64,000 nucleotides of DNA from Gemmatimonadaceae bacterium (GTDB taxonomy: Bacteria; Gemmatimonadota; Gemmatimonadetes; Gemmatimonadales; Gemmatimonadaceae). Numbering within the stretch: position 1 is the stretch's first letter; each line of letters begins with the position of its first letter. Positions 613-16,289 of the stretch are shown piece by piece. Made by a program: the position numbers and the translations under genes. The notes below the pieces were generated by a model. The model saw only the letters and a list, made by a program, of their open reading frames with translations, searched no databases and was not told the origin of the DNA. The stretch is from positions 1-64,000 of the forward strand of contig JAUQWM010000015.1 in the NCBI GenBank assembly GCA_030835125.1, in the 5' to 3' direction.

Positions 613-628
613 CACCCGAGCGGACGCA

Positions 629-761
629 GCCTAACAGGCGTTGCTGCGGACAGGCGAAGGTGTGGATTGCCGCTGCGGCCGGCGGTCGTATCTTGTGTCA
701 GGGTGCCGCCGGCCGCAGCGGCTCTATGTGATCGCCTGCAGCAGAACGCTGTCCGTTAGGC
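629..761 (+). other. attC site 2
   Basis: R'' GCCTAAC at 629-635 and R' GTTAGGC at 755-761, 133 bp. It belongs to the long 'type A' family, whose hairpin carries CCGCGGCCGGCGG-like arms and whose L' is GCAGCAGAACG. Confidence 0.93.
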
Positions 762-866
762 AGCAATTCAGGCTTGGGCGAGCGTGGCTTCGGTCGCAAG
801 CCTCGACTGCTGCGCCCGTCTACGAGGCTGGCCGAAGGCGACCCGACCCCGTACGTTGTTGCCATC

Positions 867-1068
867 ATGAAGGTTAGGGATATACTCCGCCTGTTGCGAG
901 ATGACGGCTGGTACCTTGCCCGAACGAAGGGCAGTCATCAACAGTTCAAGCATCCCTCGAAGCCCCGGGCGAGTCACCCTCGCCGGCGCTCCGAATGACG
1001 ATATCGCGCCTGGCACTCTGAATAGCATTCTTAAGCAAGCTGGTTTGAAGCCGCCTTCCGGGGAGTAG
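867..1068 (+). pseudogene. hicA: HicA toxin (mRNA interferase), frameshifted
   Basis: From ATG 867 the protein begins as a typical HicA: a helix with RDILRLLRDDGWYLARTKGSH containing the conserved G-S-H that carries the catalytic His, then QQFKHPSKP. The frame then slips at a CCCC run near 962-966 and stops at 996-998. Removing one C restores the expected C-terminus (GRVTLAGAPNDD, then NSILKQAGLKPP) to a TAG at 1066-1068. HicA cleaves mRNA and is neutralised by HicB, encoded 4 bp downstream. The shift could be a real inactivation or a sequencing error in the homopolymer. Confidence 0.85.
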
Positions 1069-1072
1069 ACGC

Positions 1073-1288
1073 ATGCAGCGCTATCTGATTGTTCTCGAGC
1101 CCACAGCAACCGGATTCTCGGCGTACTCGCCGGACCTGACTGGCTGTGCGGCGACGGGTGCGACGCGTCCCGAAGTCGAGGAGAACATGCGGCAGGCCAT
1201 TGAACTGCATCTGGAGGGCTTGCGTGAAGATGGTGAGCCCGTGCCGTCGGGCCAGACGATCGCAACCTACGTCGAAGTTGCTGCCTAA
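1073..1288 (+). CDS. hicB: HicB antitoxin
   Basis: This 71-residue protein matches the partial RNase H-like fold of HicB: a first strand YLIVLEPTATGFSAYSPDLTGC, then the GATRPEVEENMRQAIELHLEGL helix. HicB binds and inhibits HicA and may repress its own operon, although no C-terminal HTH/RHH domain is visible in this short form. It starts 4 bp after the ancestral hicA stop, so the two form one cassette operon. Its TAA (1286-1288) lies inside the R'' box of attC 3. With hicA frameshifted, it may now be an orphan antitoxin. Confidence 0.92.
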   Translation: MQRYLIVLEPTATGFSAYSPDLTGCAATGATRPEVEENMRQAIELHLEGLREDGEPVPSGQTIATYVEVAA

Positions 1289-1398
1289 CAGGGTTTGCAG
1301 CTGACAACGGAGCTGCGGTACGCGCGGAGGCACTCGCTTCGCTCGTGTCCACCGCGCGATCTATTTGATCCGTTGCAGCTGAAACCTATCCGTTAGCC
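1283..1398 (+). other. attC site 3
   Basis: R'' GCCTAAC at 1283-1289 and R' GTTAGCC at 1392-1398, 116 bp. It is the clearest example of the 'type B' family: L'' GGTTTGCAGCTG, a loop with CGCGCGGAGGCACTCGCTTC, L' CAGCTGAAACC. Confidence 0.93.
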
Positions 1399-1430
1399 GG
1401 ACTTCACTGGCTCCCGACCCGAACAACAAG

Positions 1431-1874
1431 ATGCGTCAGGACGATTCCTCCGAACCCGCGCGTCGACGAGCCCACCTCGAGGCACAAGTGCGTGCGCTCG
1501 AAGTGAAACGCGATCAGCTTCAGGAGCAAATCGCTGCGCGGCGGTTTGTACCGGTCAACCAGGCCGAAGGCGTAACGCACGCCGTCGCTCAGGCTTCCGT
1601 ACTGGTCACGCTCGAGAAGATCTTGAGCGCGGTTCAGCCGACTCTCACCATGGTTGAAAGCGCGCGAGACGATCTGCTGGCCGACCGGGCAGAAGCAATG
1701 CGCGGCAATGATGCCGCCGGTGCTAGCGAGGCGACAAAAGTCATCGAGCAAGTCGAGGCACTCCGGGTCGAATTCACAGGTACCGTAGCGCAACTGGGTG
1801 CTCTCACCAACACTATGCGAGCATCCCTGCACTCCGACGGTGCCAACGCCGCGCAGGAGCCCGACGCCGGCTAA
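1431..1874 (+). CDS. Coiled-coil hypothetical protein, cassette-encoded
   Basis: The 147-residue protein is charged and mostly helical. Residues 10-45 (EPARRRAHLEAQVRALEVKR onwards) form a strong coiled-coil heptad pattern, and a second helical region covers residues 60-130. There is no signal peptide or membrane span, so it is likely cytoplasmic. Family unknown; size and helical layout resemble the cassette gene at 23173. The TAA stop (1872-1874) falls inside the R'' box of attC 4. Confidence 0.7.
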   Translation: MRQDDSSEPARRRAHLEAQVRALEVKRDQLQEQIAARRFVPVNQAEGVTHAVAQASVLVTLEKILSAVQPTLTMVESARDDLLADRAEAMRGNDAAGASEATKVIEQVEALRVEFTGTVAQLGALTNTMRASLHSDGANAAQEPDAG

Positions 1875-1999
1875 CAGACGTTGATGCTGTCAGTCGAGGT
1901 AGGGATGGCCGCCGCGGCCAGCGGTCGTATCTTGAGGAAGGTGCCGCCGTCCGCGGCGGCTCTATTTGATCGCCTGCAGCAGAACGCTATCCGTTATGC
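1869..1999 (+). other. attC site 4
   Basis: R'' GGCTAAC at 1869-1875 and R' GTTATGC at 1993-1999, 131 bp. Type A hairpin with GTCGTATCTTGAGGAAGG in the middle. Confidence 0.9.
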
Positions 2000-2018
2000 C
2001 GCCAATCCTGGAGCCTGT

Positions 2019-2555
2019 GTGAGGACTCGCACTGTGTGCGTCGCGATAGCGCTCCTGCTGCTTCAAGGCGGTGCATCGGAACGTGCCTTCGCGCAGGCGA
2101 GCGAGGACCCGGAAGGTCGCCTCCGCGCGCTTGGTCTCACCCTCCCCTCATCCAATGTCCCGGCGGGCAACTATGTGAGCGCGGTTCGCACGGGCAACCT
2201 CCTCTACCTGGCAACGCACGGGGAATGCGGAACGCCGTTGCGTGGCAAGGTCGGCGCCGGCGTCAGCGTGGATAGTGCTTACGCATCTGCTCGTCGGGTT
2301 GCGCTCTGTATGCTGGGCACCTTGAAGACCGAGCTTGGGGATCTGCGGCGAGTGGTGCGGATCGTCCGTGTCACGGGCATGGTCAACTCGGCCCCCGACT
2401 TCACCGACCAGCCCAAAGTGATCAATGGCTGCTCCGACCTACTGGTCGCGGTGTTTGGCGACAAAGGTCGCCATGCCCGAGGCGTTCTCGGCGTCGCCTC
2501 GATGGCGGATGGACGCACCGTCGGGATCGAAATGATCGTCGAGGTGCGGGACTAG
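2019..2555 (+). CDS. Secreted RidA/YjgF-family protein
   Basis: Starting at GTG 2019 gives a signal peptide (CVAIALLLLQGGAS, cleavage after AFAQA) followed by a complete RidA-like domain of about 150 residues: AGNYVSAVRTGNLLYLATHG, a GVSVDSAYASARRVALCMLG helix, then VVRIVRVTGMVNSAPDF and GVLGVASMADGRTVGIEMI. It resembles the YjgF/UK114 subfamily with chorismate mutase-like trimer topology. The subfamily's enamine deaminase activity is not assured, and a secreted location is unusual. The longer upstream ORF is rejected because it would translate attC 4. Single-gene cassette. Confidence 0.85.
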   Translation: MRTRTVCVAIALLLLQGGASERAFAQASEDPEGRLRALGLTLPSSNVPAGNYVSAVRTGNLLYLATHGECGTPLRGKVGAGVSVDSAYASARRVALCMLGTLKTELGDLRRVVRIVRVTGMVNSAPDFTDQPKVINGCSDLLVAVFGDKGRHARGVLGVASMADGRTVGIEMIVEVRD

Positions 2556-2573
2556 AGGCGCCGCTTCGTTGCG

Positions 2574-2706
2574 GCATAACAGGCGTTGCTGCCGACAGGC
2601 GAAGGCGTGGATTGCCACCGCGGCCGGCGGTCGTGTCTTGCTTCAGGGTGCCGCCGGCCGCGGTGGCTCTATTTGATCGCCTGCAGCTGAACGCTATCCG
2701 TTAGGT
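2574..2706 (+). other. attC site 5
   Basis: R'' GCATAAC at 2574-2580 and R' GTTAGGT at 2700-2706, 133 bp, type A. The best-formed site of the window: arms CCACCGCGGCCGGCGG and CCGCCGGCCGCGGTGG are nearly perfect complements. Confidence 0.95.
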
Positions 2707-2748
2707 ATCAAACGCGTTACTCGTTGTGACCGAGGCCGGATCATTCAC

Positions 2749-3594
2749 GTGCGAACTTCCTTCCCGACGATCTTTGCGCTTGCGCTCTGGACGGGCATCC
2801 TCGTATGCCTGGCCAGCCGCGCCGCCGGTCAGCTCCCGGAGCCCCAGCCCACTGGCAGCCATTGGCTTGTCGCGCGGCCGGAGGAGGTCGTCGGCTGGTT
2901 CACGTTCGACCCCGCAGCTGTCACCGATCGCCTGCCTGAGTATCTGCGCTTCGTCACGGTCGGCGAGCTTGCTAACTCCGGCATTCGATGGGCCGCGGAC
3001 TACCTGGCCCATCAGGAGTCGCACGCGGGGTGGGGCGTGTCCTTCCTTGAAATCGTCCGTGCTGACACCTTCGCGATCGACGGCCGCGAGCCAAACTGGC
3101 CGGAGCGCGGCGCAGTCGCCGTATGGTTTGCCCGCGTTCTTCCTAAAGCCGGAACTCCGGACCTAGGCCCTGGGCTGCCACTGCTCATGCTTGAGTTCTG
3201 GATGCCGGACAGTGCCTACGTCCCCTTCATGCATCAACGCGGTCATTACTCCACTTACGCCGACGTTCGCCTCGCACGCCGCAGGGACCGGTGGGAAGGC
3301 TCGATCAACACCCCGGATTTAGCAGTCCGAATCGAATGCACACCTGGCACCACAGAGTCTGGCGGTCCCAACGCGAGCGGATCCCAGCTCCTCATCCCGC
3401 CGAGAGGATCCGGCCTGACCACCGTTATCTCGATTACTTTTGCCGGTCATCGCGAGCGGACCTGCACGGAGCCATTCTCGTGGACGATCCAAGGCCGGCA
3501 TCCGTTGAGCGCCGCCGTCGCAATTGAGTCGCCCTCGTTTCAGTATGGCTACCGCCTCAGCGGTGATCCCATTTCTCGCGCTCCCCAACCGTGA
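2749..3594 (+). CDS. Secreted hypothetical protein, cassette-encoded
   Basis: This GTG-start protein of 281 residues has a signal peptide (hydrophobic residues 8-24, cleavage after RAAGQ). The mature part is rich in aromatic residues and beta-prone stretches (WAADYLAHQESHAGWGVSFL, AVAVWFARVLPKAG, LLMLEFWMPDSAYVPFMHQR). Two Cys residues (around 196 and 240) could form a disulfide in the periplasm. No family recognised. It is the only gene between attC 5 and attC 6. Confidence 0.75.
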   Translation: MRTSFPTIFALALWTGILVCLASRAAGQLPEPQPTGSHWLVARPEEVVGWFTFDPAAVTDRLPEYLRFVTVGELANSGIRWAADYLAHQESHAGWGVSFLEIVRADTFAIDGREPNWPERGAVAVWFARVLPKAGTPDLGPGLPLLMLEFWMPDSAYVPFMHQRGHYSTYADVRLARRRDRWEGSINTPDLAVRIECTPGTTESGGPNASGSQLLIPPRGSGLTTVISITFAGHRERTCTEPFSWTIQGRHPLSAAVAIESPSFQYGYRLSGDPISRAPQP

Positions 3595-3595
3595 A

Positions 3596-3733
3596 ACCTA
3601 ACGGGAAATTGAGCCAGACAATCGGCGCCAACATTCGCGGGCTCGCATAGACCGCGGTAAGGCAGACGTCACCACGCCAGTAAAGGGACGCGGCTTGTCG
3701 CGCCGCTTGCAGGCTAATTCATGGGCGTTAGAC
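3596..3733 (+). other. attC site 6 (divergent type)
   Basis: R'' ACCTAAC at 3596-3602, L'' AAATTGAGCC, L' GGCTAATT and R' GTTAGAC at 3727-3733, 138 bp. The L boxes pair with one extrahelical G, but the sequence is unrelated to types A and B, so the cassette probably came from a different integron lineage. Confidence 0.82.
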
Positions 3734-3785
3734 CGCCCTTTCACGATCTCGTTGTGTCAACCGGTCAAAGCCGAAGGGAGGAACT

Positions 3786-4685
3786 ATGAATCGCGCGCGC
3801 CTAACGCTTGTGGTCGCCGTGACCCTTATAGCGCAGGGCTGCACGTCGGATTCCGATGAGCCGCCCCAGATCCCGGCAGATGCAGCTCCGGACGTCGTCT
3901 TGCTCGCCAGCGCGAACGGCGCCTTCGAGGCTCCCGACACAATTGACGCGGGTTGGACAACATTCCGATTCGCCAACAACGGCGACGACATTCACTACGC
4001 GCACTTTGTGCAGCTAGCCTCCGGCAAAACCGCGAACGAGGTCATCGCTGCGTATACCGAGGCCATTCGCACATCCGCACCACGCCCCGAATGGATGACG
4101 CGGTTCGGGGGTCCCGGAGGTGCTGTGCCGGGAGGGTCGTCTGCCGTAACACAGTACATGGGGCCCGGCAATTACGTTTTGCTCTGCCCCGTCGAGGATG
4201 GCACAGGGACTCCGCACTTCGCGAAAGGAGAGTTCAGAACTGTCGTTGTCCGCGCGTCAGCCAGTAACACCTCGACGCGGACAGCTCCGTCCGCAACGGC
4301 GACGATCCGGCTATTGGATTACGGGTTCAGCGTTGATAGTCAAATCACGGCCGGTGCGCATACCATTCGCACCAGCAATGCCGGCGTTGAGGGTCACGAC
4401 CTCGTGATCATGAAGCTCGCTTCGGGCATCACTCTTGACGATGTCAGCAGGACAATGAATCCGGAGGCCGCTCGTCGTACGGGCAACGCCGCGAAACCGC
4501 CAGTGCTGTTCGAGAACCTTGGCACTCTAGTCGGCGGCATCGCCGCGATCCACTCGGGGATGGATGTGTTCTTCACCGTTACACTGACGCCCGGCGACTA
4601 CGCCTTACTCTGCATGGCGACTGCTGGGGATGGGCGCTCGCACATTGAACATGGAATGGTTCATTTAATGACCGTGAAGCAATGA
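3786..4685 (+). CDS. Lipoprotein with tandem cupredoxin-like domains
   Basis: A strong Shine-Dalgarno (GGGAGGAAC) precedes ATG 3786. The 299-residue product has a lipobox LIAQGC with Cys19. Two similar halves follow (about 30-155 and 165-299). Each has 'AGWTTFRFANNGDDIHYAHF' or 'AGAHTIRTSNAGVEGHDLVI' near the start and ends in GNYVLLCPVEDG / GDYALLCMATAGDG followed by H..G.. The Cys and His near the end of each half resemble type-1 copper ligands, but I cannot confirm copper binding. Envelope-anchored; single-gene cassette. Confidence 0.8.
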   Translation: MNRARLTLVVAVTLIAQGCTSDSDEPPQIPADAAPDVVLLASANGAFEAPDTIDAGWTTFRFANNGDDIHYAHFVQLASGKTANEVIAAYTEAIRTSAPRPEWMTRFGGPGGAVPGGSSAVTQYMGPGNYVLLCPVEDGTGTPHFAKGEFRTVVVRASASNTSTRTAPSATATIRLLDYGFSVDSQITAGAHTIRTSNAGVEGHDLVIMKLASGITLDDVSRTMNPEAARRTGNAAKPPVLFENLGTLVGGIAAIHSGMDVFFTVTLTPGDYALLCMATAGDGRSHIEHGMVHLMTVKQ

Positions 4686-4697
4686 GATCTCAAGGCG

Positions 4698-4815
4698 GTC
4701 TCACGTGTGTTGCAGCAGACGGCGGACCATGGAAAGCGCGCAGGCGTTCGCTTGCGCTCGCGTCCAGCGCACAGAATGGTTTGATCCGCCGCAGCCTGAA
4801 CGCTATCCGTTAGGC
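4698..4815 (+). other. attC site 7
   Basis: R' GTTAGGC at 4809-4815 and L' GCCTGAACG are intact. The R'' box is weak (GTCTCAC at 4698-4704). The loop GCAGGCGTTCGCTTGCGCTC is type B-like. Confidence 0.8.
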
Positions 4816-4828
4816 ATTCGCCAAGATC

Positions 4829-5302
4829 ATGCTTGGAGGTCTCCGAGTCGCTCTGTGCGGGTTGGCGTTGGCCGCCGGTGCTGGCGCTGACGCCGCCGGT
4901 TAGGGTTGGCCGGCCGCCGATAGCACCGTGATCGCTGGACTACGGCGGTCGGCGCCGTGTCCCTCGAATCCACCGACAAGCTGGTCGCGCCCCGATTCGT
5001 TGCTGCCAAAGTCGTCCCGGTGCCACCTGGTCGTCGCAGCGCTTGCCGCGATGTCCAGCAGCCCGGATTCGCTGATCCGAAATGGCGCCCGGGACGCGGT
5101 GTGCGTAGGTGTTTACGGATTCGCGTTTCCGACCCTACCAGAGGATGGCACCGGACAGGCATACTGGACGGTAGAGTTTGTGGGATCGGACGGCAGCGCC
5201 GTGGGAGCGTACATTGACCGAGCGACTGGAGCAGCGCGACCGGCCCGATTCCCGAATGAGTTCGGAGTGCCCGTCTCGAAGGTCTGTGGCGGCGATGCCT
5301 AA
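4829..5302 (+). pseudogene. Small secreted protein, probably interrupted
   Basis: ATG 4829 opens a good signal peptide (VALCGLALAAGAGA) that ends at a TAG (4901-4903). The same frame reopens and from about residue 75 gives a plausible mature domain (VCVGVYGFAFP, AYWTVEFVGSDGSAVGAYID, then FGVPVSKVC), resembling a PepSY-like strand-helix unit. In between, a different frame looks better coding (VSLESTDKLVAPRFVAAKVV). This fits a gene with an internal stop and compensating frameshifts. The TAA lies in the R'' of attC 8. An intact short ORF from 4928 is the alternative. Confidence 0.42.
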
Positions 5303-5412
5303 CAGGGTTGCAGCTGCAGCCGGAGTTATGGTACGCGCGGAGGCACTCGCTGCGCTCGTGTCCATCGCGCGAGTGTGTTTGATCCGGCGCAGCTGAAACC
5401 TATCCGTCAGCC
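5297..5412 (+). other. attC site 8
   Basis: R'' GCCTAAC at 5297-5303, type B hairpin and L' CAGCTGAAACC, but R' is GTCAGCC (5406-5412). It is the first site with the T-to-C change at the crossover-proximal position. Confidence 0.88.
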
Positions 5413-5736
5413 AGACGAGGAGCGCCTCATCGCTCAGCGACTGGCCCTTCGAGCGACGATTGCCTTCCTCGCGCTGCCGGGCATCGTCGCTTTCGCGTTG
5501 CCGCTCCTCTGGCTGCGACCGGCAGGCGCTGGGTTCACCCGATGTATGTCGGCGTCCTGCTGGTCACGGCCGGTTGGGCGGTGGGCTTTCGGTCCTGGAC
5601 GCTGGCCGGCTACACGGGCGCGCTGCTGATCGCGTTTCACCTGCGCGTGCTGCTCCACGAGGAGCCGTGGCTCGCACGCACGTTCGGCGCCGAGTGGGCC
5701 ACGTACCGCGCGCGCGTTCCACGTTGGCTGCTGTGA
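5413..5736 (+). pseudogene. Isoprenylcysteine methyltransferase-like membrane protein, internally deleted
   Basis: Two frames carry the two ends of one gene. The first (to about 5525) encodes an N-terminal membrane helix (TIAFLALPGIVAFALPLLWL). The second (5530-5736) encodes the C-terminus HPMYVGVLLVTAGWAVGFRS, then LHEEPWLARTFG and YRARVPRWL, typical of the ICMT/PEMT-like methyltransferase family, where the region before NPMYVG and the EEP..L...FG..Y motif bind SAM. The middle, including the RGPYRYVR segment, is missing and the frame shifts at the join. No good start codon is visible. Inactive remnant. Confidence 0.7.
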
Positions 5737-5752
5737 GTGGGCGCCGTGCGAG

Positions 5753-5893
5753 ACCGCTAGCTATCGATGGTTGGTGCAGAAGGCCGTGCTTCGGGAGCGG
5801 GGGCGCGGCCCCCGCTCCATGCCCGAGGCGGACTCGCGGGGGCCGCGCTCCCGCATTCTATTTGAACGGCCACAGCACAACCTGACGTCAGAT
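5753..5893 (+). other. attC site 9 (degenerate)
   Basis: A large GC-rich hairpin (GGGAGCGGGGGCGCGGCCCC paired with GGGGGCCGCGCTCCC) is flanked by GGTTGGTGCAGAAGGCCG and its complement-like GGCCACAGCACAACC. It ends in a GTCAGAT R'-like box at 5887-5893. The R'' box is unclear. Confidence 0.55.
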
Positions 5894-5921
5894 CGCAATC
5901 GAACTCGCCGCGCACGTCCGA

Positions 5922-7514
5922 ATGCTCACAACTGCCAAGCCCCGGGGACACATGACAACGCCGGACAACGGATTGCTAACACGTCCTGCAACGGCGTTGT
6001 CTCGCCGCCAGGCACTCGGACTTCTGGCCGCCGGAGCACTCACTCCCGTCGGTCGCTGGTCGCTTGTTCGGTCGGACACAAGTAGCGCTGGTGACCCGCT
6101 TCACTATCTGAGTCTCCGTGAAGTCGCACGGCTCATTGCGACACGCGAACTCTCGCCGGTGGAGCTCACTCAACACATGCTCGATCGCATCGCGAAGCAC
6201 GATCCGATCCTCGAGAGCTACGCAACGGTCACGCACGATCAAGCGCTGGCCGATGCACGCGCCGCGGAGCGCGAAATCGCCGCCGGCAGATACCGTGGAC
6301 CGCTCCACGGCGTGCCGCTCGCGCTGAAGGATCTCATCTGTACGAAGGGTGTCCGCACCATGGGTGGATCCTTGGTACACAAAGCCTTCGTGCCGAGCTT
6401 CGATGCGACGGTCGCTTCGAAGCTGCGTTCCGCCGGCGCCGTGATGCTCGGGAAGCTGAATCTGACGGAAGCCGCGTCGGCGGGGTACAGTCCAACCTTC
6501 GGTGTGCCACGCAATCCGTGGAATATCGACTATTGGCCCGGTCTCTCATCGAGCGGGTCGGGCGTCGCGACTGCCGCGGGGCTGTGCTTCGGGTCGCTCG
6601 GCACCGATACGGGTGGATCAATCCGGTTTCCATCCGCGGCAAACGGCGTCGTCGGACTCAAGCCGACGTATGGTCGCGTCAGCCGATACGGCGTGCTGCC
6701 GTTCGCCGAGTCGCTTGATCATGTGGGGCCGATGGCGCGCACGGTCGGTGACGTCGCCATCTTGTGTGACGCGATCGCGGGACGCGATCCCAACGATCCG
6801 ACATCAGTGGACGCGCCGCCGCCGACCGCGTTCAGAGATCTTACACAGGACACGCGCGGCGTCCGGATCGGCATCGATCGGAAGTACGCGCTGGATGGTG
6901 TCGACGCCGGCGACGCGGCAGCGCTCGAGGAAGCGCTCCGCGTACTCGCGTCCCATGGCGCGCAGATCGTCGATGTCCGCATGCCCGACCTGTCGGCGTT
7001 GCTCGATACCTGGCGGACGATTGCGACAGCCGAGATGGCGCAATCACAGGCGGCGACATATCCATCGCATGCGTCCGAGTATGGTCCCTACATGCGCGAC
7101 TTTCTCGCGGATGGAGCGCGCGTGACGCCCGCGCACCTCGCTCAGGCCAGGAAGAAGGGCTCGCAACTCAGCGCGCAGTTCGCCGCGATGCTTGACTCTG
7201 TTGACGCGATGGCATGTCCGGCCGGCGGCGCTCCCGCATGGCGCGTGACGCGAGCGATCCAGACAGGCCCGGCCGCCGAGCTTCACCAAGCCTGGGGCGC
7301 GGCCGCGCCGCGCGCGATGGATTTTGCCGCGCCGATGGACCTGGCGGGGACACCGACGATCTGTCTGCCGTCCGGGTTCTCGCCGGGCGGCCTGCCCTAC
7401 AGCATTCAACTTGCCGGCCGCCAGTTGAGTGAACCAATGCTCTGCCGTATCGCCAACACATACGAGCAGGCGACGAGTTGGCACGGACGACATCCCGACC
7501 TGGACACGCTGTAG
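5922..7514 (+). CDS. Amidase (amidase-signature family), Tat-exported
   Basis: A 530-residue amidase-signature hydrolase, which cleaves amide bonds with a Ser-cisSer-Lys triad. The Lys is in LALKDLI (Lys136), the cis-Ser in the SSSG run at 209-211, and the nucleophile Ser233 in GTDTGGSIRFPSA. The N-terminus has a twin-arginine motif SRRQALGLLAAGAL, so export is likely. ATG 5952 (MTTPDNG) is an alternative start. At 1.6 kb it is one of the largest cassettes here. Substrate unknown; it is not assumed to be GatA because no gatB or gatC is nearby. Confidence 0.92.
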   Translation: MLTTAKPRGHMTTPDNGLLTRPATALSRRQALGLLAAGALTPVGRWSLVRSDTSSAGDPLHYLSLREVARLIATRELSPVELTQHMLDRIAKHDPILESYATVTHDQALADARAAEREIAAGRYRGPLHGVPLALKDLICTKGVRTMGGSLVHKAFVPSFDATVASKLRSAGAVMLGKLNLTEAASAGYSPTFGVPRNPWNIDYWPGLSSSGSGVATAAGLCFGSLGTDTGGSIRFPSAANGVVGLKPTYGRVSRYGVLPFAESLDHVGPMARTVGDVAILCDAIAGRDPNDPTSVDAPPPTAFRDLTQDTRGVRIGIDRKYALDGVDAGDAAALEEALRVLASHGAQIVDVRMPDLSALLDTWRTIATAEMAQSQAATYPSHASEYGPYMRDFLADGARVTPAHLAQARKKGSQLSAQFAAMLDSVDAMACPAGGAPAWRVTRAIQTGPAAELHQAWGAAAPRAMDFAAPMDLAGTPTICLPSGFSPGGLPYSIQLAGRQLSEPMLCRIANTYEQATSWHGRHPDLDTL

Positions 7515-7632
7515 CGTCGCAGTGGCATCACGTCCCAGCTCGGCGGCGAAATCCAAGCCGGACAAAGGGCAGATGGTGTCGCGGGACCCGTCACGTCGAG
7601 GTTCGACTCGCCCGCGATCCGACGTGCGCTGC

Positions 7633-7716
7633 ACCTGACAAGGGAGCTATGGATTGCGCCGGGCTCCGCCCGGCGCTCTCATACGATTCCCTTGCAGATG
7701 AGCTCAGGCGTTAGCC
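7633..7716 (+). other. attC site 10
   Basis: R'' ACCTGAC at 7633-7639, L'' GAGCT and L' AGCTC, a short GCGCCGGGC/GCCCGGCGC hairpin and R' GTTAGCC at 7710-7716. 84 bp, distinct from types A and B. Confidence 0.75.
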
Positions 7717-7730
7717 GGACAGGAGACCTT

Positions 7731-8180
7731 ATGACTCATGCCGATGACTGGGCCGCAGTTCACGCGATCCTTGCGCGCCAAGTGCCGGAGGTCGCCAACG
7801 GTACCGTTGAGCTGCGTCGGATCGCTCGAGAACCCGGTCGGCGCACGAAACTTGCTGTCGCCTCGCTCTCACCCGATTTGGATCCGGTTGTCGCGTGCGT
7901 CGGGCCCAAGGCCACCCGAGTAAATGCCCTTGCTGCGGCGCTAGGCGGAGAGCGTATCGACATCCTGCCCTGGTCCGATGCACCGGAACGCTTTGTGACG
8001 CTCGCACTCGCACCGGCGCGCGTGCGATCGGTGGAGCTCGACCTGCCTCGGCACCGAGCCGTTGCTCGCGTCTCACCCGACCAACTTGACATTGCCCGCG
8101 GTCAGGATGAACTCAACGCTCGGCTTGCGAGTGAACTCACGGGGTGGACGGTGGCCGTCGTCGCGGGTGATGCCGGCTAA
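7731..8180 (+). CDS. Stand-alone NusA KH1-KH2 domain protein
   Basis: After an AGGAGA ribosome site, ATG 7731 starts a 149-residue protein that aligns over its length with the KH1-KH2 region of transcription factor NusA: VPEVANGTVELRRIAREPGR, ALGGERIDILPW, then LNARLASELTGW. The NusA N-terminal RNAP-binding and S1 domains are absent. Both GXXG loops have changed (GPKA and GQDE for GPKG-like and GRNG-like), so RNA binding may be altered. It could compete with or modulate NusA. The TAA at 8178-8180 is inside the R'' box of attC 11. Confidence 0.9.
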   Translation: MTHADDWAAVHAILARQVPEVANGTVELRRIAREPGRRTKLAVASLSPDLDPVVACVGPKATRVNALAAALGGERIDILPWSDAPERFVTLALAPARVRSVELDLPRHRAVARVSPDQLDIARGQDELNARLASELTGWTVAVVAGDAG

Positions 8181-8290
8181 CAGGGTTTGCAGCTGGCGAC
8201 GGAGCTATGGATGCGCGGAGGCACTCGCTTCGCCCGTGTCCATCGCGCAGTCTTATTGAATCCGTCGCAGCTGAAACCTATCCGTTTGGC
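8175..8290 (+). other. attC site 11
   Basis: R'' GGCTAAC at 8175-8181, type B hairpin, L' CAGCTGAAACC and R' GTTTGGC at 8284-8290. 116 bp. Confidence 0.9.
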
Positions 8291-8308
8291 AGCCACAGCA
8301 CTCTACCG

Positions 8309-8947
8309 ATGCCACAAACGCCCATGGCCGAAGCCTCGGTTCCGAATCCCGCCCTTAGCTCGTGGCGCGTCCTGGTTGGCGAATGGGTCACCGTCGGCTC
8401 CCACCCGTACATGCCGGGCATCACCTTGCACGGTCGAACGGTCTTTGAATGGCTTGCGGCCGGCGCCTTTTTTATGATGCGCTCGGACATTGACGAGCCA
8501 GGCATTCCCAGTGGCATCGCCATCATTGGCACTGACGATGCCAAGAGCGAGTGTTCGATGCTCTACTTCGACGAACGCGGTGTCTCGCGAAGGTATGAGG
8601 TATCGCTGCGAGGAAACGTTCTGAGATGGTGGCGCAATGATCCTCACTTCTCTCAACGCTTCACTTGTACGATCAGCGACGGTGGTCGCACTATGGTCGG
8701 TAAGGGAGAACTCTCCAAGGACGGGGCGCCTTGGGAGCCAGATCTTGCACTCACCTATACCAAGACCCAATCACCAAGCGTACTTTGCCGAGGCTGCCGA
8801 ACAAGGTTGGCAGCCGGCAGCGGGTATTGTACGCGCGGAGGCGGTCGCTTCGCTCACGGCCACCGCGCGAAATCATTTCATCCGCTGCAGCTGAACCCAA
8901 CCGTTAGGCGGCGGAAACACTTGTTGCCCAAGCCCTTCGACCTATGA
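8309..8947 (+). CDS. DUF1579-like protein reading through its attC
   Basis: The recognisable domain covers residues 1-155: SSWRVLVGEWVTVGSHPYMP, then GRTVFEWLAAGAFFMMRSD, GIAIIGTDDA, MLYFDERGVSRRYEV, and a lipocalin-like C-terminal strand LALTYTKT. It resembles the DUF1579/FABP-like fold. No stop follows: the frame runs on through attC 12 and ends at 8947 with about 55 residues of attC-encoded sequence, overlapping the next gene's ATG. The natural stop was probably lost by mutation or cassette truncation. ATG 8324 is another possible start. Cytoplasmic. Confidence 0.75.
   Translation: MPQTPMAEASVPNPALSSWRVLVGEWVTVGSHPYMPGITLHGRTVFEWLAAGAFFMMRSDIDEPGIPSGIAIIGTDDAKSECSMLYFDERGVSRRYEVSLRGNVLRWWRNDPHFSQRFTCTISDGGRTMVGKGELSKDGAPWEPDLALTYTKTQSPSVLCRGCRTRLAAGSGYCTRGGGRFAHGHRAKSFHPLQLNPTVRRRKHLLPKPFDL
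8796..8909 (+). other. attC site 12
   Basis: R'' GCCGAAC at 8796-8802, type B loop GCGCGGAGGCGGTCGCTTCG, L' CAGCTGAACCC and R' GTTAGGC at 8903-8909. It lies within the open frame of the preceding gene. Confidence 0.88.
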
Positions 8948-9177
8948 GCTCACGACAACTTGTTCTCGGATTTCTCGGTGGCGCACTCATGGCTTGGGGC
9001 GGCGCGCATATAAGCACGCGTCTGGGGGGGTCGACCCTCACCACCGTCAGCGTCCTCGCGTTCGCGCTCGGCGTGTTCTGCTTCTGCCTCATGTCACTCG
9101 TTGCGCTATCGTCCCGGGTTGCCAAGCTCGAGCGTGCGCTTACCAGCTCTAGCTCTGGCTCGATGCCGTTGCGCTGA
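8944..9177 (+). CDS. Small two-helix membrane protein, cassette-encoded
   Basis: A 77-residue protein with two hydrophobic spans (LVLGFLGGALMAWGGAHI and VSVLAFALGVFCFCLMSLVA) and a short charged tail (SSRVAKLERAL) of coiled-coil character. Its ATG overlaps the stop of the read-through gene before it. No family recognised. Inner membrane, probably both ends on the same side. Confidence 0.65.
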   Translation: MSSRQLVLGFLGGALMAWGGAHISTRLGGSTLTTVSVLAFALGVFCFCLMSLVALSSRVAKLERALTSSSSGSMPLR

Positions 9178-9398
9178 ACTTGAGGGAGCGCTGTGACCGT
9201 AGATTGAAGTCTGACAAACGAGGCTACGGAAGCGGCTTCGCCGCCATGGGTGGTTTTGCCTATTGGGGCCACGATCCGCAACCGACCGAGGATCGTCGCA
9301 CGCGGGTTTTGCGAGCCTCGTGATGCCACTCAGCCTGGGGATCGTCGGGTGCGCCATCATCGCGGTCCGTGCGGGCCTTGCCAGATGACTCAGGCGCT
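9178..9398 (+). other. Non-coding or eroded cassette segment
   Basis: 221 bp without a convincing gene. A hairpin GGAAGCGGCTTCGCC at 9229-9243 may be an eroded attC. A 22-codon hydrophobic ORF (9323-9388, MPLSLGIVGCAIIAV) looks like the last helix of a lost membrane protein. Confidence 0.4.
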
Positions 9399-9475
9399 GG
9401 CTGACAGGCGTTGCCGCTGGCGGTGGCGCGTCGGTGCCGTTGGTGCCCCCGCAGCAGAAACGCTATCCGTTAGCC
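9399..9475 (+). other. attC site 13 (short)
   Basis: R'' GGCTGAC at 9399-9405, L'' GCGTTGCCGC, L' GCAGCAGAAACG and R' GTTAGCC at 9469-9475. 77 bp with a reduced loop. Confidence 0.85.
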
Positions 9476-9542
9476 AGCGCGATTGCTGTCTTGACCGCGA
9501 TGTCGACACTCTAACGTGCCGCGCGCCTTCGATGGAGATTCG

Positions 9543-10025
9543 ATGAAGCGTCTGCTTCTGGTGTTGTCGCTATTGGCGATGACGACACCTCCTGCTCGCG
9601 GGCAGGTCAGCCTCCCGGCCGCTGTACTTGACTCAGCAGCTGCCAGGATCGCAACCCCGATCCTCAATCGACTGGACAGGGCGTGGACCGCAGGCGACGG
9701 CCTTCGGTTTGCTGCTGAATTCACTGAAGAGTCCGACGTCATCAACGTCAGTGGTTCTCACCTTCATGGTCGATCCGCCATCGCGACGCAACTCCAGGGA
9801 ATGTTCAGCTCCGTGTTCAAAGGCAGTATCCATCGAGCACGAACGCTGGAAATGGCGCAATTGCTGAGCGATAGCATTGTCCTGGTCGTGTCCTCAGCCA
9901 TCATCGACGTGCCCGCCGGTCCATTAGCGCCGCTCGCTACAAGTCGGCAAACGTTCATCGTCGTGAACCGAAACCGCGTTTGGCAGATCCAACACTGGCA
10001 CAACACAACAATTCGAACGCGCTAG
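9543..10025 (+). CDS. Secreted NTF2-like (SgcJ/DUF4440-type) protein
   Basis: ATG 9543 starts a signal peptide (RLLLVLSLLAMTTPPARGQ). The mature part is an NTF2-like cone fold of about 130 residues: a long helix LDSAAARIATPILNRLDRAW, then AEFTEESDVINVSGSHLHGR and the terminal strands QTFIVVNRNRVWQIQHWHN. It resembles SgcJ/EcaC or DUF4440 proteins, which have no single defined reaction. The product is 160 residues. No attC is recognisable between it and the next gene, so the two may share a cassette. Confidence 0.82.
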   Translation: MKRLLLVLSLLAMTTPPARGQVSLPAAVLDSAAARIATPILNRLDRAWTAGDGLRFAAEFTEESDVINVSGSHLHGRSAIATQLQGMFSSVFKGSIHRARTLEMAQLLSDSIVLVVSSAIIDVPAGPLAPLATSRQTFIVVNRNRVWQIQHWHNTTIRTR

Positions 10026-10108
10026 GGGAACGTCATGCGGGTCGTTGGCGAATCGCACCACGGCAGTCGCGTCGAGGACTCACTGGTTCCCTCAAGCCTC
10101 TCGGACCA

Positions 10109-10807
10109 ATGACAGAGCGTTCAGGCCAACCTGACGGTTCGACCCTTCTGCCCGAAGAGACCGCCCATCGAGTTCTGGCGCGTGCCGTCGAATTGGATGC
10201 CGCGCAGGCCTCGGACATTCCAGTCGCAAGGCTTCGGGAAATCGCTCGTGAGGCCGGAATCGCGGACCGGGCATTGGAACAGGCCCTTCTCGAGTTGCAG
10301 TCGCCGGTGGCCGTGCCGATTGCCCAACTGCAAAGCAACGAAGGCCCCACCGTTTGGGCGCGCCTTGAGCCGTTCGTCCGGAATGCCGGCGCATTCGCTG
10401 CGGGTATGGCCATCATTGGGACGCTGAGCCGGGCTGCAGTGAGCATTGGATCGGGCTGGCCGCTTGAACAGGGCGCCGCGATTCTCGGGAACATTCTCGG
10501 CGTCGGGTTGGCTCTCCGCCTGCGTGGGCGCGTCACGGCATTCGTGCTGGCGGTTACGGCCATCGCGCAGCTCGCCGAGTACCCGATGCACTTGATGTTC
10601 GGGATCGAGACAGTGCAGGGTGGCCCAACGAAGTGGGCACTTATCTTGGCCGCCGCTTTGGGACTTGGATTCGGGGCCGTTGCGTACAGGCGCAAGCTCA
10701 CGGGTGCCGCTCTGGCGGCCGTTGTCGAAGCCAAGCCCAAAGACCCGACGACCGATCCGCGTACGATTGCGGAGCAATCGCGAGCCTTGGTGCTGCGAGC
10801 CGTTTGA
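10109..10807 (+). CDS. Membrane protein with N-terminal helical domain shared with the gene at 52636
   Basis: The 232-residue protein has an N-terminal helical domain (residues 15-65: LLPEETAHRVLARAVELD, then LREIAREAGIADRALEQALL), two or three membrane helices (95-165) and a final span around 176-192. The N-terminal block matches in layout the chromosomal protein at 52636-53322 (VDAIFARASEAEQ ... LQEIGRDAGLSPDLVVQAA), also followed by two membrane helices. Function unknown. The upstream start at 9980 is rejected because it would overlap the preceding gene by 46 bp. Confidence 0.72.
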   Translation: MTERSGQPDGSTLLPEETAHRVLARAVELDAAQASDIPVARLREIAREAGIADRALEQALLELQSPVAVPIAQLQSNEGPTVWARLEPFVRNAGAFAAGMAIIGTLSRAAVSIGSGWPLEQGAAILGNILGVGLALRLRGRVTAFVLAVTAIAQLAEYPMHLMFGIETVQGGPTKWALILAAALGLGFGAVAYRRKLTGAALAAVVEAKPKDPTTDPRTIAEQSRALVLRAV

Positions 10808-10824
10808 TGAATTGCGGCAGTGCG

Positions 10825-10850
10825 GGCTAACAGGGTTTGCAGCTGGGGAT
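10825..10850 (+). other. attC site 14, left half only
   Basis: R'' GGCTAAC (10825-10831) and type B L'' GGGTTTGCAGCTGG are perfect, but no L'/R' half follows within 200 bp. The right half has been lost or replaced by the segment with the inverted gene. Confidence 0.7.
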
Positions 10851-10990
10851 GGAGTTGACGACACTCAATGGCCTTCGGGCATTCACTGCGCCATCCGCGT
10901 TACCCTTCGACGCGCACTCGAGGTGACGCCGCTCATGCGACCCGCCGCAGAGGGTGCCAAACAATCAGGGACGGGTGTCCCGGTCGCCCT

Positions 10991-12112
10991 CTACTTCGTC
11001 CAGATCAGGACCACTCCGCAGCTGCCGTTCATCGGCTGAAACTCCGGCGGTGCCCCAGTGCCTCGCGGGTAGACCTCCATCGCAGCAACCGAACTGGGCA
11101 CCACCATTTCATTCACAAAGTCGTCGGTGCCGCTCCCGAGACTACTCCCGACCCTTCCCACAATTCTGACGCGGTCCAGATACACCGTCATGACGCACCG
11201 AAACACGCGCGCAGACTCGAGGGGGGAACCGATCCGAACACAGGCCGGATCCGGATCCGTGCGAGGTTTGCACGGTGCACCGACGAGCATCTCCTTCCTG
11301 GGATTACCCGTACCATCCTTCTTCACGACGACTGCGGGGAGACCCTCAACCATCTGCGTTATCTGGTGTGGTTTGCGAAACTCGAAATCCTCCGGCGTCA
11401 TGAAGTAGCCGTGGTTCACGCCGCGTTCGGCATCCCGCATGCGCCGATAGAACCCGTTCAGGTCAAGCGACTGGAAGGCGGCACGGCCGGTGATCCGTTG
11501 CTCCGGCAGCGAGGTGGCAAACACCGTCATGCGCACCCGGATCGCGGTATCCGGAGCCGCTTCGATCTTCAGTTCTTCCGGCGAGAACCCGATGCGCCGG
11601 ACGAGTAACGAGAACCGCCCGGTGGGCGATGGCATCGTGAACCGGCCCGAATCATCCGCGATGAAGCGGCGCCCGCCATTGAGCTGAACGCTGGCGTACG
11701 AAAGCGGCGCGCCCTCGGTGTCGGTGACGCGACCGCGGAGGACCCGATCCGACGGATTGACCTCGGGAGGCGCGCTCGCTTCGCTGACGAGCCTGAACTC
11801 TCGACTGACTCCACCACGGCGCGGCAATGTCACCGCGCCAGAATCCCCTCGGTAGCCCGCCGCGCGCATCGTGAAGACCAGCATCGAGCCCGGCGTTCCC
11901 GAGAGGGCGAACGCACCCGCAGAGTCGGTCCGGACCGAGTAGCCGATTCTGGTGAGGGTGACCGTCACACCGGCGATCCCGTCGCCGCTGTCGTTCACGA
12001 CCTTGCCCCGTAGCACTGTCGCCTGCCCGGAAGCGGCAATCGGTGTGCACAGGACAGCGATGGCGAGAAGGATCCTCAGGCCGGCAGACGCCATCCACAA
12101 CCTCCGAATCAA
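10991..12112 (-). CDS. Secreted protein with carboxypeptidase-regulatory-like and plug-like domains
   Basis: A 373-residue minus-strand gene inside the array. After a signal peptide (LRILLAIAVLCTPIAASGQ), two CarboxypepD_reg-like Ig modules follow (about 32-105, LRGKVVNDSGDGIAGVTVTL; and 121-200, LRGRVTDTEGAPLSYASVQL). A C-terminal region (235-373) resembles a TonB-receptor plug ending in VEVYPRGT-like and GVVLIWTK strands (seen as AAMEVYPRGTGAPPEFQPM and CGVVLIWTK). Such proteins are common outer-membrane or surface components. Opposite orientation implies its own promoter in 12113-12400. Confidence 0.82.
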   Translation of the reverse strand: MIRRLWMASAGLRILLAIAVLCTPIAASGQATVLRGKVVNDSGDGIAGVTVTLTRIGYSVRTDSAGAFALSGTPGSMLVFTMRAAGYRGDSGAVTLPRRGGVSREFRLVSEASAPPEVNPSDRVLRGRVTDTEGAPLSYASVQLNGGRRFIADDSGRFTMPSPTGRFSLLVRRIGFSPEELKIEAAPDTAIRVRMTVFATSLPEQRITGRAAFQSLDLNGFYRRMRDAERGVNHGYFMTPEDFEFRKPHQITQMVEGLPAVVVKKDGTGNPRKEMLVGAPCKPRTDPDPACVRIGSPLESARVFRCVMTVYLDRVRIVGRVGSSLGSGTDDFVNEMVVPSSVAAMEVYPRGTGAPPEFQPMNGSCGVVLIWTK

Positions 12113-12421
12113 GCCCTGGCTCAGGTTCGGGAACCGGCGAGGCTACACCCCTGAAGCAGTCGAGTTCCCCAGCCCGCGACGCCCTCACACCACGGTCGCC
12201 CATTGGCGGTAGTGTCCCAATTTGTGGCCACTTCCCCAAGTTGGCCAGCGCCGTGCCTCTGTGCACACTGGCGCCCCTTGCTCGAAGACTCGTCGAGCTA
12301 TCAGCGCAATGCGTGAAGTTGGCGCTGTTGGCCATGCCACCGCGCGTCCGGGGATTGCTGCCGGACGATGTTCGTGCGGTCTCGCTTCACGCAGGGCCCG
12401 CCGGTGATTCCGGGCCATGCG
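12113..12421. other. Intergenic segment upstream of the inverted gene
   Basis: No supported gene. It should hold the promoter of the minus-strand gene, but I cannot point to clear -35/-10 boxes. Short ORFs on both strands have no recognisable content. Confidence 0.4.
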
Positions 12422-12537
12422 GCCTGACAGGCGTTGCGCAGACGGAGGAGCCGTGGGGGGTGCGCGCTGGCACTCGCTCTGCTCGTGTCCAGCGCGCAGT
12501 CTTATGGAATCCGCAAGCTGAACGCTATCCGTTGGAC
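12422..12537 (+). other. attC site 15
   Basis: R'' GCCTGAC at 12422-12428, L'' GCGTTGCGC, type B loop CTGGCACTCGCTCTGCTCG, L' AAGCTGAACG and R' GTTGGAC at 12531-12537. 116 bp. Confidence 0.85.
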
Positions 12538-12584
12538 GCGCATCCGGCTTCCATCCTTCAGGAGCCTCAAAGCCCGGCTGCGCC

Positions 12585-13865
12585 ATGAGGATTCTCGACT
12601 TCGGAACGCCCTCGAAGTCGGCAGGGATTGCGGGATGTCGCCGCCGGTACACGAGAAAGCATCTTGTTCACTCGGAGCAGATTCTGCGCATCAACCCCGT
12701 CATTGCCTGCACCGCGCTGTTCGCGCTCATCGCGTCCCCGATCCAGGCGCAGCGCACGGTTCACGGCGTTGTCTTCAACGACGCAAACGGCAACGGGGTC
12801 TTCGATCCCAGCGACCGGCCAGTTTCCGGCGTCGTCGTCTCCAATCAGGGGGATGTCGTCATCACTGATGCGACTGGCCGATATCGACTTCCTGCCGACG
12901 AGAAGACCACTGTCTTCGTGTCGGTTCCGACCGACTGGCAGACTGTTGGTGCATGGTGGCACACGGTGGCCAGCAGTGACTCGATCAACTTCGGCCTTCG
13001 GGCTCAACGACAGCCCCGGTCGTTCCGGTTCATTCATGCATCGGACACGCATATCGATACGAACAGCGTCGGCCGGGTTCGGCGGTTCCGGGTCCTCGCC
13101 GATTCGCTCAATCCAGCCTTGACTCTGTTAGCCGGCGATCTCATCAGGGACGCGGCGAGCCAGGAGGAGCCGCGAGCCCGGGGCTACTTCGAGCTGTTCC
13201 TCGCGGAAATGAAGCTGCGCGCTCCACACTGGACGGTGCCTGGCAATCACGATCACTTCGGCATCATTCCAAGCCGGTCGCACGTGCCCGCGACGCATCC
13301 CCTGTACAATCGTGGCATGTACCGCCACTACCTGGGTCCGGATTACTACTCCTTCAACTATGGTGGCGTGCACTTCATCGGGCTCAATACCGTACAGCCG
13401 GACGATTCGGCGTACTACGGCGGTATCGACAGCATGCAACTCGCGTGGCTGAGCCGTGACGTTGCCGCAGTGCCCGCATCGACACCGATCGTGATGTTCT
13501 CCCACATCCCGCTGACGTCGGCCGTCGAGGCGACGACCGGCTACATCGACATGGCCCTCGTCAGCAGCATCGCGCACCTGCGGACCGGACCCACATTTCG
13601 CCACACCGGTGCGAACACGCTTGCGGTACTCGACGCGTTCAGAGCGCGCCCGTGGCCGCTGATCCTGGGCGGACACACGCACGTCGCTGAGAAGGTGGTA
13701 TATCAAACTGACCGAGGGCCGCTCCGGTTCGAGCAAAGCGCGGCAATCATCGGGCCCAATGACTATGGGCCGGTCGTCATGTCGTCCGGCTTCTCCCTCT
13801 ATACCGTCAACAACGGAGTCATCGACGCCGGAACCTTCGTGCCGCTGACGATGCCCAAGCAGTAG
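12585..13865 (+). CDS. Secreted calcineurin-like metallophosphoesterase
   Basis: This 426-residue protein has an internal signal-like segment (residues 37-55), an SdrD-B/prealbumin-like module with GVVFNDANGNGVFDPSDRPV (60-115), then a calcineurin-like phosphoesterase domain. Metal-binding motifs are visible: HASDTH (Asp154, His156), GNHDH (Asn221, His222), FSHIP and GGHTH (His364, His366). It is expected to hydrolyse phosphodiesters or monoesters in the periplasm with two metal ions; the substrate is unknown. A start nearer residue 30 would place the signal peptide at the N-terminus. One-gene cassette between attC 15 and the degenerate attC 16. Confidence 0.88.
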   Translation: MRILDFGTPSKSAGIAGCRRRYTRKHLVHSEQILRINPVIACTALFALIASPIQAQRTVHGVVFNDANGNGVFDPSDRPVSGVVVSNQGDVVITDATGRYRLPADEKTTVFVSVPTDWQTVGAWWHTVASSDSINFGLRAQRQPRSFRFIHASDTHIDTNSVGRVRRFRVLADSLNPALTLLAGDLIRDAASQEEPRARGYFELFLAEMKLRAPHWTVPGNHDHFGIIPSRSHVPATHPLYNRGMYRHYLGPDYYSFNYGGVHFIGLNTVQPDDSAYYGGIDSMQLAWLSRDVAAVPASTPIVMFSHIPLTSAVEATTGYIDMALVSSIAHLRTGPTFRHTGANTLAVLDAFRARPWPLILGGHTHVAEKVVYQTDRGPLRFEQSAAIIGPNDYGPVVMSSGFSLYTVNNGVIDAGTFVPLTMPKQ

Positions 13866-14218
13866 CGGCTCTCAAGACGACGCCCAAGGGCAGCCTTCCA
13901 GCTTCACCCGCGCAGAAGGTTCCTTTGTGCGGCTGGCTGCGAACGCCGCGCCGCTCGTGCGTGCGTCATCGACTGACTTGCGCTGCACAGACGTGATTCT
14001 GGTCCAGGGCGAGGGCGCCTACGGCGCCGCTCCCGTTGGATCCGGCCGCAGCTGAGCTGCTTGACTCTGCCTTTGCGCGAGCATACGACTCGAGTCAATA
14101 TCACCTTCTCTTTCGGTAACGGCCGCATGAATGCCGAACACTGGCTATGCGCGCTCCGTCGTCATCACGGGGGGCATCCGATCGCCGCGCCGGCCCCGCC
14201 TTCAAATGGCTCTCCACC
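13866..14218 (+). other. Non-coding segment containing a degenerate attC
   Basis: 353 bp without a supported gene. Apart from the attC-like element at 13970-14070, I see only shadow ORFs. Confidence 0.4.
13970..14070 (+). other. attC site 16 (degenerate)
   Basis: An R''-like CGACTGAC, L''-like GCGCTGC, a GGGCGAGGGCGCCTACGGCG hairpin and L'-like GCAGCTGAGC are present, but no GTTRRRY box follows. Probably an inactivated site. Confidence 0.42.
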
Positions 14219-14806
14219 ATGACCAACCCCAGACTCTCCGAGCTGCCCGTGCGCCTGTTCCGGGACGCCGAGGCATGGGAAGCGTGGCTCGCCAAGCAGC
14301 ACGCCAAGTCCGCAGGCCTGTGGCTGCGGATCGCCAAGGCAGCGTCCAACGTCAAATCGGTGTCTTACGCCGAGGCGCTCGACGTCGCGCTTTGTTACGG
14401 CTGGATCGACGGGCAGAAGAAGACGTTCGACGACGCGACCTGGCTCCAGAAGTTCACGCCGCGTGGCAAACGGAGCATCTGGTCGAAGATCAACCGCGAG
14501 AAAGTGCAGCATCTCCTCGAGAGCGGCCGCTTGCAGTCAGCCGGCCTCGAGGCTGTGGACCGCGCGAAGGCGACCGGTCAGTGGGACTCCGCGTACGACT
14601 CGCATCGAACCGCTGGCGTGCCGGACGACCTTCAGCGCGCGCTCGACGCGCACCCGAGAGCGAAGGCGTTTTTCGCAACCTTGAACAGCGCGAACCGATA
14701 CGCCATCCTGTTCCGGATCCAGACAGTGAAAAGAGCCGACACACGCGCGAAGAAAATCGAGCAGTTCGTCGGCATGTTGGAGCGGCATGAGGTGATCCAC
14801 TCGTAG
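14219..14806 (+). CDS. YdeI/OmpD-associated family protein
   Basis: From ATG 14219 the 195-residue protein shows the YdeI-family core: EAWLAKQHAKSAGLWLRIAK, then YAEALDVALCYGWIDGQKK, WLQKFTPRGKRSIWSKIN and a helical C-terminus with RAKKIEQFVGMLERHE. The family is annotated as 'bacteriocin-protection, YdeI or OmpD-associated'; its biochemistry is unclear. No signal peptide, so it is cytoplasmic. The longer ORF start (14147) adds an unconserved extension and is not preferred. Cassette between attC 16 and attC 17. Confidence 0.88.
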   Translation: MTNPRLSELPVRLFRDAEAWEAWLAKQHAKSAGLWLRIAKAASNVKSVSYAEALDVALCYGWIDGQKKTFDDATWLQKFTPRGKRSIWSKINREKVQHLLESGRLQSAGLEAVDRAKATGQWDSAYDSHRTAGVPDDLQRALDAHPRAKAFFATLNSANRYAILFRIQTVKRADTRAKKIEQFVGMLERHEVIHS

Positions 14807-14889
14807 CGCGGGCGCGCCTCGCCCTGCGCGGCATCGGCGCCATCGCGTATCCAGACTTGGCGCCGTGCAGGCTTTCCTGACTTCGGACG

Positions 14890-15020
14890 GCCTGACAGAC
14901 GATGCTGCTGGCAGCCGAGCTGGGGATGGACGTCGCGGCCGACGGTCGTACCTTGTGCCATGGTGCCGCCGGCCGCGGCGGCTCCGTTGGATCGCCTGCA
15001 GCAGAACGCGTCCGATACGC
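14890..15020 (+). other. attC site 17
   Basis: R'' GCCTGAC at 14890-14896, type A hairpin and L' GCAGCAGAACG are present. R' has decayed to about GATACGC (15014-15020). Confidence 0.82.
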
Positions 15021-15034
15021 CGAAGAACAAGGCC

Positions 15035-15577
15035 ATGAGCAACTCCATGCGCGTCGCCTGTGTAGCCGTTGCGTTCATCTCAAGTGCGCTCCCTGCCCAG
15101 ACCGATCGCATTGCGCTGGCGACCGATGCTGCGCCGAGCTCGCTTGCCGAGGCCGAGGAAGCTGGGGCTCGATTCCCAGCGATCATTCCGCGCCGAGTGT
15201 TGCCCTCGCCGTTCGCGGATGTCGGGGTTCCCGGCTCAGCGCACCGGCGTTGCGTTCCAGTGCAGGCGAAGTCGACGATGCGGGCCGGCGACTTCCTCGT
15301 TGGGCCGTTTACGGCGCCGGGCAAGTGGTGGGCTGGGGGCCAGAAGCTGTGGTGGGTTCCCGCGTCGGAGGCAGGGGAACTGCGCGTGGTTGCCGTCCAC
15401 CTGGATCGCGCGACGCCCACGCAGATCTTCCACCAACCCGGCGTTGCGCATCCCCCAGGTAGCCCCTCCGATGCGTTCCATCCGACGAGGATCTGGTTGC
15501 CCGCGGCTGGTCGATGGATGCTGGTGGCGACGTCCGGCACAAGCTGGGGCTGCATCGTCGTCGACGTACCGAACTAG
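15035..15577 (+). CDS. Secreted hypothetical protein, cassette-encoded
   Basis: ATG 15035 begins a signal peptide (RVACVAVAFISSALPAQ). The 180-residue product has two Cys (about 73 and 174), Trp-rich segments (GKWWAGGQKLWWVP), and ends with a strand pattern GRWMLVATSGTSWGCIVVD, suggesting a small beta-sandwich. Periplasmic or outer-membrane-associated. No family recognised. The longer ORF from 14960 would translate attC 17 and is rejected. Confidence 0.7.
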   Translation: MSNSMRVACVAVAFISSALPAQTDRIALATDAAPSSLAEAEEAGARFPAIIPRRVLPSPFADVGVPGSAHRRCVPVQAKSTMRAGDFLVGPFTAPGKWWAGGQKLWWVPASEAGELRVVAVHLDRATPTQIFHQPGVAHPPGSPSDAFHPTRIWLPAAGRWMLVATSGTSWGCIVVDVPN

Positions 15578-15661
15578 TATCGTCGGTCCGACCACTCGGG
15601 ACGCGGGGCAGGAAGTGGGCCTGCTGGTGAGCCAAAGCTCACTGGCATGTCACCGGCGATC

Positions 15662-15796
15662 GCGCATGACGGGCAGTGCTACTGACGGGCGAGGTGGGGT
15701 AGCCCCCGCGGCCGGCGAACGTATCTTGAGGAAGGTACCACCGTCCCGGGCGGCGATGGTTGCTGTTCGCGCGCCGCAGAATGCTATCCGTCAGGC
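15662..15796 (+). other. attC site 18
   Basis: R''-like GCATGAC at 15662-15668, type A centre (CGTATCTTGAGGAAGGTACC), L' CGCAGAATGC and R' GTCAGGC at 15790-15796. 135 bp. Confidence 0.78.
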
Positions 15797-16286: not shown

Positions 16287-16289
16287 GGC

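Follow-up and report, generated by a model that had tools for sequence, protein, structure and literature searches.

The window, the 64,000-nucleotide stretch of DNA analysed here, opens with an array of integron cassettes, one of which encodes a stand-alone protein made of the KH1 and KH2 domains of the elongation factor NusA (Table 1). This open reading frame is a true integron cassette: it has its own ribosome-binding site, its stop codon sits within the R'' core (GGCTAAC) of its own attC site, and attC sites of the same orientation lie on both sides. The left edge of the cassette is the R' core GTTAGCC (about 7711-7717) of the preceding site, and the R' core of its own site, GTTTGGC, occupies 8284-8290. 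Sites of the array that lie outside the training set of the attC model include 5297-5412 (91.8 bits) and 4698-4815 (78.7 bits). An integron integrase gene, intI, is located on another contig of the same genome (C46:24082-25011) and scores 388 bits against a curated cut-off of 265. Because the full overlap between that contig and the window is exact and is present at only two places in the genome, namely the end of the one and the start of the other, the array is most simply read as continuing from intI and the first cassette behind it. On these sequence grounds it is classed as an intI-linked chromosomal integron, and mobility of its cassettes is predicted. An earlier sequence-only reading of this DNA had placed the gene in an integron cassette, which the two flanking attC sites and the link to intI bear out.

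Table 1. Features of the NusA-KH cassette and its array (positions in the window)
Feature	Position	Strand	Evidence and remarks
Contig overlap	1..141	+	Identical to the last 141 bases of the intI contig (C46); joins the array to intI
Cassette array	50..21227	+	About 22 attC sites, every one on the + strand, by a covariance model built from nine attC-like sites; some of the matches were training sites
attC of the preceding (amidase) cassette	7617..7716	+	attC model R1, 59.3 bits, E 1.6e-12; hairpin as ssDNA, z -4.1
Shine-Dalgarno-like AGGAG	7720..7724	+	Inside the cassette, 6 nt 5' of the ATG; direct sequence reading
Stand-alone NusA KH1-KH2 protein	7731..8180	+	ATG start, open frame, 149 aa
KH1	7806..8042	+	Residues about 26-104; loop GPKA, residues 58-61; KH_5, secondary structure of the model, alignment
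KH2	8043..8165	+	Residues about 105-145; loop GQDE, residues 124-127; NusA chains by sequence and structure
attC of the NusA-KH cassette	8175..8290	+	R1, 124.2 bits, expected to be high because R1 was built partly on this site; hairpin as ssDNA, z -3.3 and -3.9

Counted from intI, the NusA-KH cassette is number 10, at a depth of about 8 kb in the array. Cassettes deep in an array are often poorly expressed. Neither a promoter, in a scan limited to the sigma-70 type, nor a terminator was found inside this one. The first cassette after intI carries an N-acetyltransferase-like frame (by reading), and the third a HicA/HicB toxin-antitoxin pair at 774-1288 (Pfam HicA_toxin, 7.6e-11; HicB_lk_antitox, 2.4e-9). 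Further cassette products are YjgF/RidA-like (1881-2555), OmdA/YdeI-like (14147-14806), and a beta-lactamase-family serine hydrolase (16526-17677). A minus-strand frame of 373 aa (10991-12112), with a signal-peptide-like start and a carboxypeptidase-regulatory-like look by reading, opposes the direction of the array; over 2.9 kb around it no attC site was detected. The integrase gene and the cassettes share a strand, that is, the 'reverse' arrangement, which is the rarer orientation of the integrase among integrons, and the contig break falls at the first attC site. Sites of the same type are also scattered over other contigs of the host (C26, C59, C25, and C29), where no integron integrase scored above the cut-off.

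The product of the cassette is the KH1-KH2 pair of a bacterial NusA, cut at natural domain boundaries. In a phmmer comparison with the NusA of Thermotoga maritima (1hh2), residues 12-142 of the query aligned with chain residues 206-337 (9.5e-34). The Pfam family KH_5 matched KH1 (6.6e-21, residues 35-102); no Pfam match was obtained for KH2, though its structure is clear, and the presence of both domains is supported by phmmer and structure. The NCBIfam model of NusA, TIGR01953, was matched at 7.4e-43 over positions 200-336 of 340 only, with a score of 146.8 bits that is below the cut-off of 253.4. These match ranges define the product as the KH pair and nothing else. It starts at the KH1 boundary, so that the RNA polymerase-binding N-terminal domain is absent by TIGR01953, and the Pfam and NCBIfam profiles found no S1 domain; both absences had been proposed from the letters of the DNA and are upheld here. 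The NusA motifs REPGRRTK and ERIDI-PWS are retained.

Structure prediction, which the sequence-only reading had suggested as a check, agrees with this identity. An AlphaFold2 model, calculated from 41 aligned sequences of the window and the loci, with a row taken from a phage record left out, has a pLDDT of 94 and a pTM of 0.87. In VIA-align, the predicted fold is closest to the KH pair of Mycobacterium tuberculosis NusA (2atw; Z 24.6, rmsd 1.4 over 144 residues), and the model also matches the archaeal KH-only NusA 2cxc (Z 14.6) and NusA2 (Z 12.1 and 11.4). The entries 5lm7 and 7ubn are also among its structural matches, and a structural library of viral proteins gave no significant match.

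The nusA gene of the host itself is intact. It is found elsewhere in the genome, encodes 447 aa, and stands beside infB and truB (neighbours named by reading). A recent truncated duplicate of this gene would explain why the top sequence matches of the cassette product are the NusAs of the host's own order, at 50-54% identity. However, identity to the host NusA is 48% over the full alignment and 52% over the matched part. In the tree, the NusAs of the same family group tightly with that of the host, and the cassette falls outside the NusAs of its phylum on a very long end branch (2.72 changes per column; median 0.063). That position would suit an origin in another phylum, but approximately unbiased (AU) tests did not reject a grouping with the NusAs of its phylum (p 0.30; 0.50 for a smaller group). 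The GC content at third codon positions is 0.64 in the cassette versus 0.93 in the same part of the host nusA, and is 0.69-0.77 in three other cassettes. Because of this divergence and composition the cassette is not a recent copy of the host nusA, an explanation with virtually no chance of being correct. It split from a full nusA long ago and has retained the fold.

Searches for a second member of the family gave none. Neither 99 near relatives nor a 395-genome sample of the phylum contained a stand-alone relative among the matches listed; in both sets NusA was found in long open frames, save for weak partial matches. For the family (179 genomes), the order (288), and the class (394), no match was closer than the NusA level, and the sole extra, short-frame copy in a KH_5 search of 60 relatives was the cassette itself. 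In a collection of genome contigs, each of the 43 loci lay in an open frame at least 319 aa long, without a stand-alone copy among them. Viral contigs gave no match to the protein query and two matches to the alignment, both ordinary long NusA frames. In plasmid and phage collections all matches were below 60% identity and the annotated ones were nusA, with the length of one, LR756504.1, checked individually. These collection scans rely on short peptide patterns. A literature search found nothing relevant, by title and abstract, that ties NusA to integron cassettes. The earlier reading had named a recent truncated copy of the host's nusA without homologues elsewhere as the finding that would speak against it: the copy is contradicted by the divergence given above, which favours the claim, whereas the lack of homologues, seen in the genome sets and in the collections of genome contigs, viral contigs, plasmids, and phages, counts against it.

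Two side observations from the viral material may be recorded. The LR756504.1 entry (302331-308717) belongs to a 636-kb uncultured phage record and encodes a full-length divergent NusA in a 423-aa frame, with 32% identity to the query. The two viral-labelled IMG/VR contigs (L105 and L106), whose long NusA frames are of the ordinary bacterial kind, are possibly host contamination.

A serious rival to any functional role is that a nusA fragment was captured by the integron long ago and has since been a passenger, drifting without a selected function. The orphan status of the protein in the collections searched, its very long branch, and the lack of a detected sigma-70-type promoter within the cassette are what this explanation would predict. 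The pattern of substitution speaks on both sides. Twelve of 39 near-invariant NusA residues are altered in the cassette, and the maximum in any of 40 NusAs is 5; the changes include G54V, G61A, E70A, I123R, G127E, and Q128L. On the other hand, identity to the host nusA by codon position is 0.62/0.64/0.39, with the third position most diverged, and 36 of 37 hydrophobic NusA columns are still hydrophobic. Random substitution to equal DNA divergence left an amino acid identity of 26% (maximum 33%), compared with the observed 48%, and 95% of the sequences so produced gained stop codons while 5% were stop-free; the frame of the cassette is open. Together with a clean ribosome-binding site, precise domain boundaries, and a fold predicted with high confidence, these features argue against a passenger, which we regard as somewhat less likely than the role proposed below. 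Part of the constraint on the protein may predate its separation from nusA, since without a second family member the constraint after truncation is inseparable from that acting while the sequence was still part of nusA.

In a KH domain the GXXG loop touches the backbone of the nucleic acid, and in other KH proteins binding is weakened or lost when its glycines are changed (PMC7949032). Both loops had been described as altered from the sequence, to GPKA in KH1 and GQDE in KH2, and these are indeed the residues present; yet each loop keeps its first glycine and loses only the second, which a few real NusAs also lack in one loop (1 of 40 in KH1, GPKR; 4 of 40 in KH2, GRKA or GRRA). The acidic DE pair in the KH2 loop has no counterpart among the 40 NusAs, the cassette being alone in that set. 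With this acidic loop, KH2 is likely to bind RNA weakly or not at all, and has probably lost such binding. In KH1, RNA binding is probably weakened, and some may remain. Fisher tests gave no significant excess of changes around the GXXG loops (p 0.17-0.62), so that a pattern of RNA function lost and protein function kept is suggestive only.

By analogy with the archaeal KH-only NusA, which binds RNA (PMC8116511) and matches the predicted fold, the cassette product could instead be an RNA-binding regulator of changed specificity, in which KH1 has kept its RNA binding and transcripts are the target of the protein. Its GPKA loop keeps the first glycine and a lysine, its overall charge is similar to that of real NusAs, and changes of the second glycine occur in natural NusAs too. 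Such a regulator would have to work with two acidic residues in the backbone-contacting loop of KH2, with the adjoining change I123R, and with a valine in place of G54, which is invariant in 40 of 40 NusAs. We consider this explanation unlikely.

We tentatively propose that the cassette product is a diverged partial NusA, weakened in RNA binding, which may compete with or tune the host NusA in trans through the protein faces of its KH domains. The competitor and modulator roles suggested in the earlier reading would fit the anatomy of the protein. When NusA is off the polymerase, its acidic repeat AR2 folds onto KH1 (PMC12297416; PMC6614801), an autoinhibitory contact (PMC12297416). IF2 is predicted to contact KH2/AR1 of NusA (PMC12297416), NusA of E. 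coli links the polymerase to the ribosomal proteins S2 and S5 (PMC7858274), and this polymerase-ribosome coupling runs via a KH domain (PMC8116511). Once expressed, the cassette product would act in trans as a partial NusA. Through the protein surfaces of its two KH domains it could engage the C-terminal acidic-repeat domain of the host NusA; alternatively, the pair could occupy the ribosomal or IF2 contacts of the KH region. In either case, a free KH pair would compete with or tune the host NusA, whether in pausing, in termination, or in the coupling of transcription to translation. With more reserve, we suggest a bacterial KH-only NusA, that is, a mobile partial NusA that has lost its grip on RNA, keeps its fold, and may tune host transcription in trans by protein contacts.

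NusA is recruited by the lambda proteins N and Q, and integrons often carry accessory functions. Both facts, together with 5lm7 and 7ubn among the structural matches, would suit a phage-defence decoy or antitermination blocker that captures phage antiterminators or Nus factors. However, PADLOC models gave no match at E 0.01 to the cassette product or the products of 7 neighbouring cassettes, and the searches of phages and viral contigs found no stand-alone copy. Moreover, lambdoid N contacts the N-terminal domain of NusA in the antitermination complex (PMC4499122), and this domain is lacking here. No evidence points to a role in phage defence, which the earlier reading had also raised, and we consider such a decoy very improbable.

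Within the collections searched and the papers cited here, the KH part of NusA on its own is otherwise known solely from archaea. If the proposed role is true, modulators of basic transcription can be spread by integrons, and the cassette would carry one that moves laterally and modulates a core elongation factor. It also provides a natural GXXG-altered KH pair for asking what the KH domains of NusA do beyond holding RNA.

Three known systems can be compared with the cassette. With the KH1-KH2 part of bacterial NusA (TIGR01953; 2atw, 1hh2, 5lm9) it shares homology over the whole product and the same predicted two-KH fold, whereas it lacks the N-terminal, S1, and acidic-repeat domains, is carried on a predicted mobile cassette, and differs in both GXXG loops and in the near-invariant residues given above. 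KH-only proteins are the normal form of NusA in archaea (PMC8116511). Archaeal NusA and NusA2 (TIGR01952; 2cxc, 9fjl, 9f9u) are likewise stand-alone KH1-KH2 proteins, of about 140-170 aa, that match the predicted fold of the cassette product; however, identity to them is only 16-18%, and the score of 24.7 bits against a TIGR01952 cut-off of 74.35 rules out an archaeal NusA, the product being clearly bacterial by sequence. Cass2-type cassettes, which encode the effector-binding domain of AraC/MerR-type regulators, differ in fold and ligand class and have cassette relatives, whereas none was found for NusA-KH. They nevertheless offer a precedent for a cassette that encodes one domain from a multi-domain regulator (PMC3048380), and the likeness lies in a single transcription-regulator domain presented as an integron cassette.
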